The position numbers and the translations under genes were made by a program. The notes under the pieces were generated by a model that was given only the letters and a program-made list of their open reading frames with translations, was not told the DNA's origin and did no database searches. Source: Paenarthrobacter sp. GOM3 (lineage in GTDB: Bacteria > Actinomycetota > Actinomycetes > Actinomycetales > Micrococcaceae). Taken from it: a stretch of DNA of 64,000 nt. Shown here piece by piece: positions 3,370 through 39,408 of the stretch (within the stretch, counting starts at the first letter, position 1; each line of letters starts with the position of its first letter). The stretch lies in contig NZ_CP136562.1 in NCBI RefSeq assembly GCF_018215265.2, positions 3,038,001-3,102,000 on the forward strand, in the 5' to 3' direction.

Positions 3370-3418
3370 GGCCCGCAGTGGCGACCACTTCCGTCAGGAA
3401 GGGCGCCCGCTGCGGGCC
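3370..3418. terminator. Bidirectional hairpin between rmuC and ispH
   Basis: GGCCCGCAG at 3370-3378 pairs with CTGCGGGCC at 3410-3418. The arms continue inward (TGGCG with CGCCC-type pairing) and there is an inner CTTCC-gtca-GGAAG stem. The element lies exactly between two converging genes, as expected of a shared terminator. No long U-tract is present, which is common in GC-rich actinobacteria. Confidence 0.7.
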
Positions 3419-3438
3419 AAATCCATAAGCGCTTCTTG

Positions 3439-4524
3439 CTAGGACGTAGGACGGTTCCCGCGGCCACCCAGGGCCCGGGTCACGTCGCCGGCCTTCTTCA
3501 ACGTAGCTCGCAGCTCCTTGGGGAGCGAGAACAGGAGATCTTCCTCCGCTGTTACCACTTCCTGGACTTCGCCATAGCCGTAGTCGGCCAGCAGGCGCAG
3601 GACATCCTGGACGAGAACTTCGGGGACGGACGCACCGGAGGTTACGCCGACGGTCGCGACGCCTTCGAACCAGGCTTCGTCCACCTCGTTGGCGAAGTCC
3701 ACGCGGTAGGAGCTCTTGGCCCCGTACTCGAGGGCAACTTCAACCAGGCGTACCGAGTTCGATGAGTTGGCCGAACCAACCACAATAACCAGGTCAGCCT
3801 GCGGCGCGATCTTCTTGATGGCCACCTGACGGTTGGTGGTGGCATAGCAGATGTCGTCGCTGGGCGGATCCTGGAGCGTCGGGAAACGGTCCTTCAGGAG
3901 GCGGACGGTCTCCATGGTTTCGTCCACGCTCAACGTGGTCTGCGAGAGCCAGATGGTCTTCTCGGGATCGCGCACTGTGACCTTGTCCACCTCGTGCGGA
4001 CCGTTGATGATTTGGATGTGCTCGGGAGCCTCGCCGGCTGTGCCCTCGACTTCCTCGTGGCCTTCGTGGCCGATGAGAAGAATGTCGTAGTCGTCCTTGG
4101 CAAAGCGCACGGCTTCGCGGTGGACTTTGGTGACCAGCGGGCACGTCGCGTCAATGGTGCGCAAGCCACGGTCCTCTGCCGACTGGACCACTGCCGGTGA
4201 AACTCCGTGGGCGGAGAAAATGACCAGTGCGCCTTCGGGAACCTCGTCCGTTTCCTCAACGAAGATGGCCCCTTGTTCTTCCAGCGAGCTGACCACGTGG
4301 ACGTTGTGGACGATCTGCTTGCGAACGTAGACGGGAGGACCGTAGTGCTCCAGTGCCTTTTCGACGGCGATGACAGCCCTGTCCACGCCGGCGCAATAAC
4401 CGCGGGGAGCTGCCAGCAGGACCTTCTTGGGACCTGTGACGGGTGCCGCCGCCTGTACCTCTTCCGGCGATCGCCGTCTCCGGGGCACGCTGGGCATCGG
4501 AATGGAAATTGCTGTGGAGGTCAT
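3439..4524 (-). CDS. ispH: 4-hydroxy-3-methylbut-2-enyl diphosphate reductase (LytB)
   Basis: IspH carries out the last step of the MEP isoprenoid pathway, reducing HMBPP to IPP and DMAPP with a [4Fe-4S] cluster. The three cluster cysteines are visible: C44 in PRGYCAGV, C128 in DATCPLV and C226 in [11 protein letters not shown]. The signature SAHGVSP (about 104-110), HEGHEE and the [10 protein letters not shown] region are also present. The protein is 361 aa, with about 30 extra poorly conserved residues before the catalytic core, common in actinobacteria. The product is cytoplasmic. The start ATG at 4524 follows a TGTGGG stretch. It points away from the upstream membrane-protein gene by a 24-base gap, so the two may be co-transcribed. 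Confidence 0.97.
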
Positions 4525-35965: not shown

Positions 35966-35986
35966 AAACACCACTATTTACCGAGC

Positions 35987-36008
35987 GGTTCCCGCCTGGC
36001 GGGACACC
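35987..36008 (+). terminator. Hairpin after the DUF3562 gene
   Basis: TCCCGCC (35990-35996) and GGCGGGA (35998-36004) form a near-perfect palindrome extended by GGT/ACC with one bulge. It begins 21 bases past the stop and probably ends the upstream transcript before the repeat-protein locus. Confidence 0.5.
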
Positions 36009-36079
36009 TTCGGGCCCATTTGTCTGCCTGACAGTCGGAGGCAAAGAGATTAGATGGGTGGAGGGTGATACCAATAATT

Positions 36080-36097
36080 TAGTAATCATGCTTACTA
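36080..36097. promoter_or_regulatory. Inverted repeat TAGTAA-N6-TTACTA upstream of the repeat-protein operon
   Basis: TAGTAA (36080-36085) and TTACTA (36092-36097) flank TCATGC, about 80 bases before the GTG start at 36175. The surrounding stretch (36070-36100) is the most AT-rich in this area and could hold the promoter. It is a candidate operator; no regulator gene is adjacent. Confidence 0.5.
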
Positions 36098-36174
36098 TTA
36101 GGCGTCGTTAGGCACGTCGGAGGGACACTGCTCACTGGGGGCAGCGGAACCCGTGCCGGAAATTGGAGCCAATC

Positions 36175-36924
36175 GTGAGTGCTGAATCCGCCACCAGCGG
36201 GCTGTCCGATGAGGAACTGATGGCGGAAGGTGCAACGCCGCTGCCCGACAAGGAGGTCGCCTCCGTCTTGGACTTGAACGCCGATCTCAACCTCGGCATT
36301 AGTGCCGCGGCCCCGATCGACCTCGGCGTCGCAGCCAACGCCAACGTTGCCGCCCCGATCGACGCAGCCGCCTCTGCCAACGTTCTGTCCTTCGGCTCCG
36401 AGTCCCAGGCCCTTGCTGACCAAGGCACCTTGATTACCCAGGGCGTCACCGGAGACGCTACCGCCCACTCAGTGCAGGACAGCGGCATTGACCAGGGCAC
36501 CGCTGCACCCGCGGACGGCAGTGGCACCGCCGCCACCACAGAACCGACGACGACGGACCCGGCCACCGCGGGTGCGACGCTTCCCGCTGAAACCAGCGAC
36601 GGCGCTCTTCCCGGCGGTGTGCTTCCGGCAGGAAGCACACCGGATCTTGGCGGGACCGCAGCTGGAGCTGCGGGCGCCCTGAATGGCAACCTGCTTAACG
36701 TCGACGTCAACCTCGATGCGAATGCCGGCATTGCCGCACCCATTAACGGCGCAGTGGCCGCCAACGCCAATGTTGCTGCCCCGATCGATGCTGCCGTGGG
36801 CGCCAACATCGGCTCGATCGACAGTAACGCGGTCGCGGTCGCCCAGCAGGATGCCATCATCAACCAGGACATCAACGGCAACGCCACGGCAGGGGCTGAG
36901 CAGCAGTCCACCATGAAGCAGTAA
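36175..36924 (+). CDS. Two-block Ala/Asn/Asp-rich repeat protein with RiPP-leader-like N-terminus
   Basis: I do not recognise a characterised family. GTG 36175 follows GGAG. The 249 residues contain no Cys, Arg, Trp or Tyr, and only one Phe, one His and two Lys, so the protein is strongly acidic. The N-terminus (LSDEELMAEGATPLPDKEVASVL, about 10-32) resembles RiPP precursor leaders, and there is no signal peptide. Block A (about 33-108) and block B (about 176-249) share the 13-mer AANANVAAPIDAA, then a Gln/Asp-rich stretch, separated by a Thr/Pro/Gly-rich linker. The next gene, a membrane zinc protease, begins 7 bases later. It may be its substrate, or a structural/exported repeat peptide. 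Confidence 0.8.
   Translation: MSAESATSGLSDEELMAEGATPLPDKEVASVLDLNADLNLGISAAAPIDLGVAANANVAAPIDAAASANVLSFGSESQALADQGTLITQGVTGDATAHSVQDSGIDQGTAAPADGSGTAATTEPTTTDPATAGATLPAETSDGALPGGVLPAGSTPDLGGTAAGAAGALNGNLLNVDVNLDANAGIAAPINGAVAANANVAAPIDAAVGANIGSIDSNAVAVAQQDAIINQDINGNATAGAEQQSTMKQ
36331..36370 (+). repeat. Copy A of a 40-bp internal repeat (encodes AANANVAAPIDAA)
   Basis: This 40-bp stretch and the one at 36757-36796 match at 35 of 40 positions. All five differences are third-codon-position changes that leave the 13-residue peptide identical. Confidence 0.85.
36757..36796 (+). repeat. Copy B of the 40-bp internal repeat
   Basis: This is the second copy of the 40-bp unit at 36331-36370. Adjacent codons in both blocks also encode similar residues (AAPI, APIDAA), so the repeat is wider at protein level. 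Confidence 0.85.
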
Positions 36925-36931
36925 CCAGTCC

Positions 36932-39373
36932 ATGACCAGCGTTCAAGACGGGCCGTCCATGCCGGACGGCCCGTCGACCCCTGCCCCGGCATCCGAATCC
37001 TCGGCGCACCCGGACATCCTGCCGCCGCCCGTGCTGGCCGACGGCGTCGAACTGATCGGCGAAACCAGAGGTTCCGGCTACAAGCAGGCCCCGTCACTCG
37101 TTCGGCGCGCCGACGGCCAGACAATCCAGTTGACCCGGCTGCTGTACGTGATCCTCGAAGCGGTGGACGGCTACCGCGGCCTGGAGGAGATCGCACAGCA
37201 TGCCAGGAGCGCCGTCGGCAAGGATGTCAGCGCCGCCAACGTGCGTACCCTGATCGACACCCAGCTGCTCCCGCTTGGTCTGCTGCGGCTGGCCGACGGC
37301 TCGCAGCCGCAGGTCCGCAAGGCCAACCCGCTCTTGGGCATGCGGTTTCGCTACTCCGTCACTGATCCGGAACGCACCCGAAAAATCACGGCTCCGTTCG
37401 CCGCGCTGTTCAACCCGCTGATCGTCATCGCCGTGACCGCGGCCTTCCTGGTCATCTGCTGGTGGGTGCTGATGGTTAAGGGGCTTGCTTCCGCCACGCA
37501 TGAGGCCTTCGCGAACCCCGGCCTGGTGCTGCTGATCCTCCTGGTCACGGTCCTGTCGGCGGGCTTCCACGAATTCGGCCATGCCGCCGCTGCCCGCCGC
37601 GGCGGCGCGACCCCCGGGGCCATGGGCGCCGGCCTGTACTTGATGTGGCCGGCCTTCTACACAGACGTCACCGACTCCTACCGGCTGGGCAGGGGCGGCC
37701 GGATCCGCACCGACCTGGGCGGCCTTTACTTCAACGCGATCGTGGCAGTAGCCATCATGGGCATCTGGTGGGCTACTGGCTTTGATGCACTGCTGCTGGT
37801 GGTCGTGACACAGATTCTGCAAATGGTCCGGCAACTGATGCCGATGGTCCGCTTCGACGGTTATCACATCCTCGCCGACGCCACCGGCGTCCCCGACCTC
37901 TTCCAACGAATCAAGCCAACGCTGCTCGCACTCATCCCTTGGCGCAAAACAGACCCACAGGCACAACTGCTCAAACCTTGGGCCCGCGCTGTCGTCACTA
38001 TCTGGGTCCTGGTCACAGTGCCCCTGCTGGTGTTCAGCCTGGCCACCATGGTGCTCACCCTGCCCCGCGTCGTCGGCACCGCCTGGGACCACGGCGAGAA
38101 ACAGCAAGCCGCCCTGGCTCACAGCCTGGCCGCCGGGGACCTGCCCGACGCCGCTGTGCGGGTGCTCGCTCTGGTGTGCATCGCCCTTCCAGTGGTGGGC
38201 ATCTTCTACATCCTGGTTCGCCTGGGCCGCCAGGCCATTACCGGCCTGTGGCAAAAAACCCAGGGCAAAACCTGGCAGCGAGCCGTCGCCATGGCCGCCG
38301 TCGCAGCCGTCACCGCCGGCCTCGTCTGGGCATGGTGGCCCAGCGCCGGGACATACCGTCCGGTCCAGCCCTACGAGAGCGGCACACTGACCGACGTCAC
38401 CACCACGATCTTCCCAACCTCAGCTGGTCATAACCTCAAACAAGGCCAAGCCGGAGGGACTGTGGCCCTTTGGCCACAAGATGCCCGCAAACCCACCAGG
38501 GACGAACCGCAGCTGAGCATGGTTCTGGTCCCCCACACCTCCTCGGCGACACCAACAGCCTCCGACACAACGACGCCGGCCCCGTCCTGGGTGTTTCCTT
38601 TCGACAAACCGCCAGCGCCCGACGACGGCGACAACCAAGCCCTCGCCGTCAACACCAAAGACGGATCCGTGGTCTACGACATCGCCTTCGCCCTGGTCTG
38701 GGCCGAAGACGGCAAGGACGTACTCAACTCCAACGAGGCTTACGCCTTCGCCAGCTGCAAAGACTGCGCCGCTATAGCTGTGGGCTTCCAGGTGGTCCTG
38801 ATCGTAGGACAAGCCAACGTAGTAGTCCCGGAAAATCTCTCCGCGGCGGCCAACTACAACTGCATCCGCTGCCTCACGTACGCACTTGCAAACCAGCTGG
38901 TCCTGACCCTTGACGGGCCACTAAGCGCCGACGGCATGGCCAAACTGAATGCGCTCTGGCAACAGATCGCCGAGTACGGCAGGAACCTGCAGAACGTACC
39001 GCTGTCCGAAATCCAAGGAAAGCTCGAAGGCTTTAAAAGACAGATCGTGGAGATCATCCAAACCGACCCCAGCACCACCTCACACGTAGCCGGGACCCCG
39101 ACACCAACGTCGTCAGCACCCCTCGGACCAACGCAGTCCACGGGCCCGCTCTCCACCCCAAATCCAGGGACAACCACACCAGCGTCCGGCGTCGAAACAG
39201 TGCCGCCGCCCGCACCAGCGGCTCCAACACCGGCACCGTATCCAACCCAGGCCACCGGCCCCGCCCAGCCGACCGCCGCCCCCACCGTCCCGGCACCCGG
39301 TCCAGCCCCCTCCGGCCCGGGCCTGCAAACAGCGGAGCCCGCACAGACACCAATCACCGCGCCCACACCATAG
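36932..39373 (+). CDS. Membrane zinc metalloprotease (M50-like peptide processing type) with PqqD-like N-terminus
   Basis: This 813-aa protein combines a PqqD-like winged-helix region (about 35-122: LIGETRGSGYKQAPSLVRR, LLYVILEAVDGYRGLEEIA), a zinc-peptidase core and an external C-terminus. Helices lie at about 160-182, 196-218, 266-298, 350-376, 407-430 and 450-468. The zinc site is HEFGH at 213-217, with D309 in RFDGYHILAD as likely third ligand, as in YydH-type putative peptide zinc metalloproteases. After the last helix, an external domain of about 240 residues has two CxxC pairs (C609/C612, C644/C647). The end is a Pro/Thr/Ala-rich, probably wall-spanning tail. It starts 7 bases after the repeat-protein gene. 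I infer maturation or export of that protein. Confidence 0.85.
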   Translation: MTSVQDGPSMPDGPSTPAPASESSAHPDILPPPVLADGVELIGETRGSGYKQAPSLVRRADGQTIQLTRLLYVILEAVDGYRGLEEIAQHARSAVGKDVSAANVRTLIDTQLLPLGLLRLADGSQPQVRKANPLLGMRFRYSVTDPERTRKITAPFAALFNPLIVIAVTAAFLVICWWVLMVKGLASATHEAFANPGLVLLILLVTVLSAGFHEFGHAAAARRGGATPGAMGAGLYLMWPAFYTDVTDSYRLGRGGRIRTDLGGLYFNAIVAVAIMGIWWATGFDALLLVVVTQILQMVRQLMPMVRFDGYHILADATGVPDLFQRIKPTLLALIPWRKTDPQAQLLKPWARAVVTIWVLVTVPLLVFSLATMVLTLPRVVGTAWDHGEKQQAALAHSLAAGDLPDAAVRVLALVCIALPVVGIFYILVRLGRQAITGLWQKTQGKTWQRAVAMAAVAAVTAGLVWAWWPSAGTYRPVQPYESGTLTDVTTTIFPTSAGHNLKQGQAGGTVALWPQDARKPTRDEPQLSMVLVPHTSSATPTASDTTTPAPSWVFPFDKPPAPDDGDNQALAVNTKDGSVVYDIAFALVWAEDGKDVLNSNEAYAFASCKDCAAIAVGFQVVLIVGQANVVVPENLSAAANYNCIRCLTYALANQLVLTLDGPLSADGMAKLNALWQQIAEYGRNLQNVPLSEIQGKLEGFKRQIVEIIQTDPSTTSHVAGTPTPTSSAPLGPTQSTGPLSTPNPGTTTPASGVETVPPPAPAAPTPAPYPTQATGPAQPTAAPTVPAPGPAPSGPGLQTAEPAQTPITAPTP

Positions 39374-39386
39374 CCCCCACCGGGTC

Positions 39387-39408
39387 GGCGCCCAGTATGA
39401 AGGGCGCC
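39387..39408. terminator. Hairpin after the zinc-protease gene
   Basis: GGCGCCC (39387-39393) pairs with GGGCGCC (39402-39408), a 7-bp stem with an 8-base loop. It starts 14 bases after the protease stop, between convergent genes. Confidence 0.65.

Follow-up and report, generated by a model that had tools for sequence, protein, structure and literature searches.

Introduction

In the daptide pathway, the protease MpaP removes precursor leaders in a manner that depends on its RRE (RiPP recognition element, where RiPP denotes a ribosomally synthesized and post-translationally modified peptide), a domain fused to an intramembrane M50 peptidase, as described in PMC10036551. The epipeptide protease EpeP/YydH, an M50 membrane protease that matures an antimicrobial, is thought both to cut its substrate and to export it, according to PMC10885120. 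Here we analyze a gene pair of the soil actinobacterium Paenarthrobacter sp. GOM3, located in a stretch of 64,000 nucleotides (the window; contig NZ_CP136562.1, positions 3,038,001 to 3,102,000) of a 4.46-Mb, single-contig genome. The two adjacent open reading frames (ORFs), 7 bases apart, encode a repeat protein of 249 amino acids (aa) and an 813-aa membrane protease, RRE-M50, which combines an RRE-like domain, an M50 core and a domain with two CxxC motifs (the CxxC domain). An earlier note on this DNA had proposed a leader-bearing substrate served by a leader-reading membrane protease. Our analysis supports this logic, and none of the three outcomes that the note had named as contrary to it (no conserved pairing, a different N-terminal fold, a known cytoplasmic family for the repeat protein) was encountered.

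We consider it probable that the pair forms a two-gene maturation system in which the repeat protein is a precursor processed by the RRE-M50 protease, its core ending up outside the membrane. The computed basis comprises the pairing, the conservation of leader and blocks, the RRE-like fold, the intact protease motifs, the variants with short precursors, and a CxxC domain that is split off and apparently secreted in some of them. We place the system with RRE-guided M50 processing, as a variant that has RiPP-like logic; it is unusual in its long multi-block substrates, its external CxxC domain and the lack of a constant modifying enzyme beside the pair. Relatives of the pair are scattered among actinobacteria. 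If this reading is correct, processing directed by a leader, familiar from small modified peptides, would extend to proteins of 250–500 aa and to products that are unmodified and probably structural. For actinobacteria in which the partner genes currently bear the names 'hypothetical' or 'peptidoglycan-binding', the system offers a common leader code and a defined protease for testing. Open-licence literature contained no description of this pair among the matches listed, and the leader motifs searched as text retrieved nothing related (one unrelated match). What appears to be new from the sequence comparisons is the occurrence, in other actinobacteria, of short precursors with the same leader beside RRE-M50, often with a separate CxxC domain.

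Results

Architecture of the pair

The features of the pair are given below. Counts out of 69 refer to the named loci found by searching with the protease, and invariant columns of the repeat protein refer to an alignment of 40 chosen sequences.

36165..36168, + strand: GGAG box resembling a ribosome-binding site, 6 bases 5' of the GTG, read from the sequence
36175..36924, + strand: repeat protein, 249 aa, GTG start, stop at 36924 (ORF, relatives, substitution rates)
36202..36273, + strand: leader motif, residues 10–33, LSDEELMAEGATPLPDKEVASVLD; 10 of 24 columns invariant
36274..36495, + strand: core block A, residues 34–107; 20 of 74 columns invariant
36496..36684, + strand: variable linker, residues 108–170; 0 of 63 columns invariant
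36685..36921, + strand: core block B, residues 171–249; 31 of 79 columns invariant
36932..39373, + strand: RRE-M50-doubleCxxC membrane protease, 813 aa, ATG start (ORF, profile and structure comparisons)
37028..37297, + strand: RRE/PqqD-like winged-helix domain, residues 33–122 (modelled fold)
37340..38341, + strand: M50/site-2-protease membrane part, residues 137–470, about seven transmembrane segments
37568..37582, + strand: HEFGH zinc-protease motif, residues 213–217; in 69 of 69 loci
37853..37864, + strand: second motif FDGY, residues 308–311; D309, G310 and Y311 invariant in 52 sequences
38588..39049, + strand: double-CxxC domain, residues 553–706, predicted outside the membrane; both CxxC motifs present in each of the 69 loci
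38756..38767, + strand: first CxxC, CKDC, residues 609–612
38861..38872, + strand: second CxxC, CIRC, residues 644–647
39089..39370, + strand: Pro/Thr-rich tail, residues 720–813; letters not conserved in the alignment

The system itself begins at 36175, not at 36080 where the earlier note had set its start, and the position of the GGAG box, 6 bases ahead of the GTG, makes GTG 36175 a likelier start codon than TTG 36163. As the note had observed, the repeat protein lacks Cys, Arg, Trp and Tyr and contains two related blocks, visible as 75 bases of 73% identity lying 426 bases apart. The start that had been called leader-like is conserved among relatives, and a similar motif heads the short precursors described below; both blocks are conserved as well and the linker is not. 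No Pfam or NCBIfam family, cytoplasmic or other, matched the repeat protein at E ≤ 1, leaving the database label 'peptidoglycan-binding protein' that its relatives carry without a supporting domain. The protein has no clear transmembrane segment (largest 19-residue mean 1.17), and its predicted structure was too poor for a structure search. Among 8000 scored candidates for each protein, 3393 passed E 0.001 as relatives of the repeat protein and 4547 as relatives of the protease; the best 120 were listed for each, and the closest named relatives of both among these best matches belong to Arthrobacter, Pseudarthrobacter and Paenarthrobacter. Comparison with five relatives (L001, L002, L004, L025 and L059) gave ratios of non-synonymous to synonymous substitution rates (dN/dS) of 0.07–0.12 for the repeat protein and 0.10–0.16 for the protease, the ratios being rough in the 3 of 10 comparisons where dS exceeds 1, implying that the two ORFs are not due to chance. 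Substrates of about 460–510 aa with an extra internal VVDSAGNVVGTLD-like repeat between the two blocks occur in two loci (L055:4457-5995 and L060:4106-6025).

The protease contains the PqqD-like domain, the HEFGH membrane part and the double CxxC recognized earlier, and hydropathy and positively charged loops are consistent with an N-in/C-out topology. It has the hallmarks of M50/site-2 proteases, namely HExxH, a later DG motif and a membrane region, although its match to Pfam M50 is sub-threshold (E 0.27); among the names that sources give to its relatives is 'putative peptide zinc metalloprotease protein'. Modelling of the N-terminal domain yields a winged helix of RRE/PqqD type. Its best structure matches include 6jx3_B, 5v1v_A, 5v1u_A, 4bs9 and 4v1u, among them leader-bound lasso-peptide RREs covered over 81–84 of their 84–88 residues; some winged-helix chains other than RREs tie with these in score, so that the comparison is informative without excluding other families. 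With the protease, Foldseek returned 144 matches at E ≤ 10 and none at E ≤ 0.001. A search of the PDB by sequence gave one match at E 0.11 and another at E 0.92, each of them to Regulation of nuclear pre-mRNA domain-containing protein 1B.

Comparison with described systems

The daptide MpaP family (NF041824, daptide_HExxH) shares the RRE-M50 fusion, and its profile aligns with residues 51–332 of the window protease at E 2.1e-29, but the score of 102.9 bits stays below the cut-off of 300. The window protease differs further in its extra double-CxxC domain; the repeat protein ends in Gln, and precursor alignments A1 and A3 lack the invariant C-terminal Thr that marks daptide precursors. In addition, the methyltransferase and aminotransferase genes that neighbor the pair in the window recur in none of the 69 loci. 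The epipeptide family (NF058609, YydH/LiaK) is similar in being an M50 membrane protease and matches at E 3.9e-9, yet its 36.5 bits fall short of the 225-bit cut-off, and no radical-SAM gene is present among the eight scanned neighbors in the window. Lasso-peptide RREs (6jx3; TbiB1, 5v1v) have 15–16% identity to the RRE-like domain, which in the window is fused to a membrane metalloprotease. As for chaplins (PF03777, ChpA-C), one distant precursor (L165) matched weakly, with E 0.016 and 15.5 bits against a cut-off of 21, whereas the window protein had no ChpA-C match at E ≤ 1. By these tests the system is not a daptide, epipeptide or chaplin system, nor a proven RiPP.

Conservation of the pairing

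Across genomes, the repeat protein adjoins the protease on its 5' side and on the same strand in 68 of the 69 loci, bearing out the pairing expected from the window. The protease start codon lies −4 to +36 bases from the partner's stop in 67 of these 68, the exception being a locus with an interrupted protease frame (L040). In Mycolicibacterium pyrenivorans (L058), the protease gene L058:4522-8478 has no adjoining partner, and the precursor model found nothing in that genome.

We also surveyed 394 genomes of the class, finding a match to the repeat protein in 29, to the CxxC domain in 38 and to both in 28; the remaining substrate-positive genome (G084) has a contig that ends inside the RRE. 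The substrate is adjoined by RRE-M50, either complete or truncated where the contig ends, in all of the 29 except G010, where precursors and protease lie at the ends of two different contigs. Nine of the ten genomes with a CxxC match only were examined (all except G364). RRE-M50 adjoins in seven, one copy being broken into two frames (G108); of the others, the match in G199 falls at the end of a contig, while the CxxC ORF of G136 has no RRE-M50 gene with it. Leader-bearing short ORFs stand upstream in six of the nine. In the family to which the window belongs, the repeat protein has matches in 7 of 120 genomes, and a plasmid search with the protease gave four records, all below 60% identity, two of them from Streptomyces. 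A CxxC-domain ORF with no RRE-M50 or precursor match in 14 kb (L126:6926-8104) is likely a remnant of the system.

Short precursors and separate CxxC proteins

Elsewhere in actinobacteria, between one and four short precursors that share its leader (ELxx...LPxREx) take the place of the long repeat protein beside RRE-M50. Among the 29 substrate-positive class genomes, seven (L094–L100) have three tandem short ORFs as the partner, each with the slightly varying leader L(T/S/P)xEExxxxxGE(E/Q/D)LPDRE(A/Q)MSL and a single core some 36 residues long. These tandem precursors strengthen the reading of the window protein as leader plus core. A protein of 117 aa with one leader and two cores (P0260) is, judging by its arrangement, an intermediate between the short precursors and the long protein of the window. 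As in RiPP precursors, an N-terminal leader and a separate core can be distinguished on sequence grounds.

In the loci of these seven genomes with tandem precursors, the CxxC domain forms a separate ORF, located downstream of the protease in five (L102, L103, L105, L107 and L108), divergent in L106, and present as a second, divergent copy in L107; in G010, it adjoins the protease on the contig that does not hold the precursors. Five of the separate proteins (L103, L105, L106, L107 and L108) begin with stretches that resemble signal peptides by eye, suggesting that the split CxxC domain is apparently a secreted protein.

The short-precursor model also has matches in 14 genomes from outside the class. 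RRE-M50 occurs in the same locus in 12, four of which have the fused, window-like architecture (L159–L162); L155 stops at a contig end, and in G661 (L154) the protease is on another contig with no precursor within 10 kb there. A third precursor type, with leader ELEAESAELLPGREAL, is found in 19 of the 199 genomes in the genus to which G163 belongs. These 19 measure 6.8–11.3 Mb, and 18 of them have at least two matches; RRE-M50 and CxxC genes adjoin this precursor type in the four genomes opened fully (G163, G191, G208 and G101). This genus is likely Streptomyces, because a plasmid of Streptomyces sp. NBC_00557 carries the same gene set.

Several loci depart from these types. Two RRE-M50 proteins with adjoining leader-bearing short ORFs (L134:4618-6903 and L135:7483-9861) have a C-terminal sequence that looks like a MinD/ParA-type ATPase by eye. 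The precursor with the weak ChpA-C match (L165:6842-7207) bears a leader and adjoins RRE-M50, with no CxxC-domain match in 14 kb. On a Streptomyces changanensis plasmid (L176:1512-1739 and 3410-3670), two Gly-rich peptides with two Cys each and an ELLPERAVLS leader represent another core type, the second adjoining an RRE-M50 gene.

Discussion

Proposed course of maturation

In the maturation system that we favor, the leader (residues ~10–33) would be captured by the cytoplasmic RRE domain of the protease, and the intramembrane M50 core would then cut the precursor near the border between leader and core. The Cys-free core, comprising two blocks here and one in each short precursor elsewhere, would reach the outside of the membrane through the protease or by another route; as the earlier note had pointed out, no ABC exporter stands beside the pair (none among the eight flanking genes in a Pfam scan). 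The released core may meet the external double-CxxC domain, and the product would most likely serve as a surface or wall-associated structural peptide.

Likeness between cores and CxxC domain

To describe the relation between core and CxxC domain, we used alignments of 32 single cores, 79 block B, 77 block A and 99 CxxC-domain sequences, from which columns occupied in less than half of the sequences were dropped. With HHalign, the three separate core alignments match the second CxxC unit best and in the same register: P, D/N at +2, N at +8, S or C at +11 and +14, A at +18 and +20, and Q at +22, with offsets read from block B and the protease of the window. The core thus has SxxS at the spacing where the domain has CxxC. 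HHalign probabilities are low (5.5% for single cores, 13.4% for block B, 3.8% for block A), yet none of 300 column permutations reached the observed score in any of the three sets.

An ungapped profile score was compared with two sets of 2000 randomizations, the first by full permutation and the second by shuffling confined to blocks of 20 columns; counts are given in this order. For single cores, 0 and 0 reached the observed score at widths of both 23 and 28. For block B, 2 and 3 did so at width 23, where the best register is another one, and 0 and 1 at width 28; for block A, the values were 85 and 63 at width 23 (again another register) and 7 and 1 at width 28. The core sets are homologous and hence not independent, and the widths were chosen after the HHalign result. 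The likeness is weak but supported by permutation, and as a sequence resemblance it is no more than suggestive of templating; common origin, mimicry and convergence on a strand motif are all possible sources.

CsgB nucleates CsgA fibers. By analogy, the protease might carry its own template for assembly: the RRE might read the leader, M50 might release and pass the core, and the external CxxC domain might nucleate or cap a surface fiber made of cores, acting as CsgB does on CsgA. This extension of the maturation reading is doubtful; were it true, one leader code would serve different structural cores across actinobacteria.

Neighboring genes and alternative explanations

The neighborhood bears on whether the cores are modified before leader removal, by an enzyme encoded elsewhere or by some neighbor, as in a true RiPP pathway. 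RRE, leader and M50 together make up RiPP logic, and the loci with short precursors have tandem precursors, which are typical of RiPP clusters. The eight flanking genes in the window encode an MFS transporter, an HTH regulator, a class IV aminotransferase, a small ORF product, a methyltransferase, a MarR protein, an NmrA-like protein and a weak DUF7269 match, so that two potential modifying enzymes are at hand. However, each of the eight recurs in at most 2 of the 69 loci, and the methyltransferase and aminotransferase, as stated above, in none.

Clustering of all ORFs of at least 120 aa in the 69 loci, with identities assigned by Pfam, revealed other shared neighbors among Arthrobacter-type loci, and the idea of a strictly two-gene unit was rejected. 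An S9 prolyl-oligopeptidase gene lies upstream of the pair in 39 of the 69 loci (39 of the 127 searched; e.g. L039:2813-5038), though not beside the pair in the window; downstream, the Arthrobacter-type loci have acetate kinase (31 of 69), Pta (25 of 69) and a GNAT acetyltransferase (22 of 69), the last a further candidate for modification. Pyridine-nucleotide oxidoreductase and thioesterase complete the six shared families identified by Pfam. Gene families common to at least 14 loci occur in none of the 11 loci from more distant genera, and we therefore read the shared neighbors as a conserved chromosomal position, though they may have a role in some genomes. What these observations bear on is whether some genomes have a third partner, and the reading of the pair is unaffected. 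No core-modifying enzyme is constant beside the pair in the 69 loci, unlinked enzymes not having been searched for. Considering also that the core in the window has no Cys, a true RiPP pathway is unlikely.

The same repertoire of several short precursors per locus would suit unmodified bacteriocin-like or signalling peptides, with cores acting on other cells and the CxxC domain conferring immunity or reception, and the maturation of an antimicrobial by EpeP offers a precedent. The cores are, however, strongly conserved between genomes. Bacteriocins are expected to diversify, so this conservation argues against such a role, which we likewise regard as unlikely. Regulated intramembrane proteolysis, the general function of M50 site-2 proteases, in which the repeat protein would be a regulator cut to give a signal and the CxxC domain, predicted outside, a redox or ligand sensor, is very unlikely, given a substrate without clear transmembrane segment or known domain that is replaced elsewhere by one to four short peptides, unlike a regulator.

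Further features of the region

Two hairpins flank the pair, which the earlier note had described as isolated by them:

35981..36013, + strand: hairpin 5' of the pair, no T-run
39387..39408, + strand: hairpin 3' of the pair, no T-run

Their presence on either side is borne out, and both fold moderately well (z of −2.36 and −1.90), but neither has a T-run, and the region's five terminator-like sites do not clearly exceed the mean of 3.4 (sd 1.9) for shuffled sequence. As terminators the hairpins are near chance, and hairpin isolation was dropped as evidence. No Rfam family reached its gathering score between 35500 and 39900. A second PqqD/M50-like protein is encoded in the same genome (L071; G000:C1:3721427-3722272) beside a YcaO-type-like protein and an ABC ATPase, and, with domain names assigned by eye, this group reads like a separate RiPP-like cluster.

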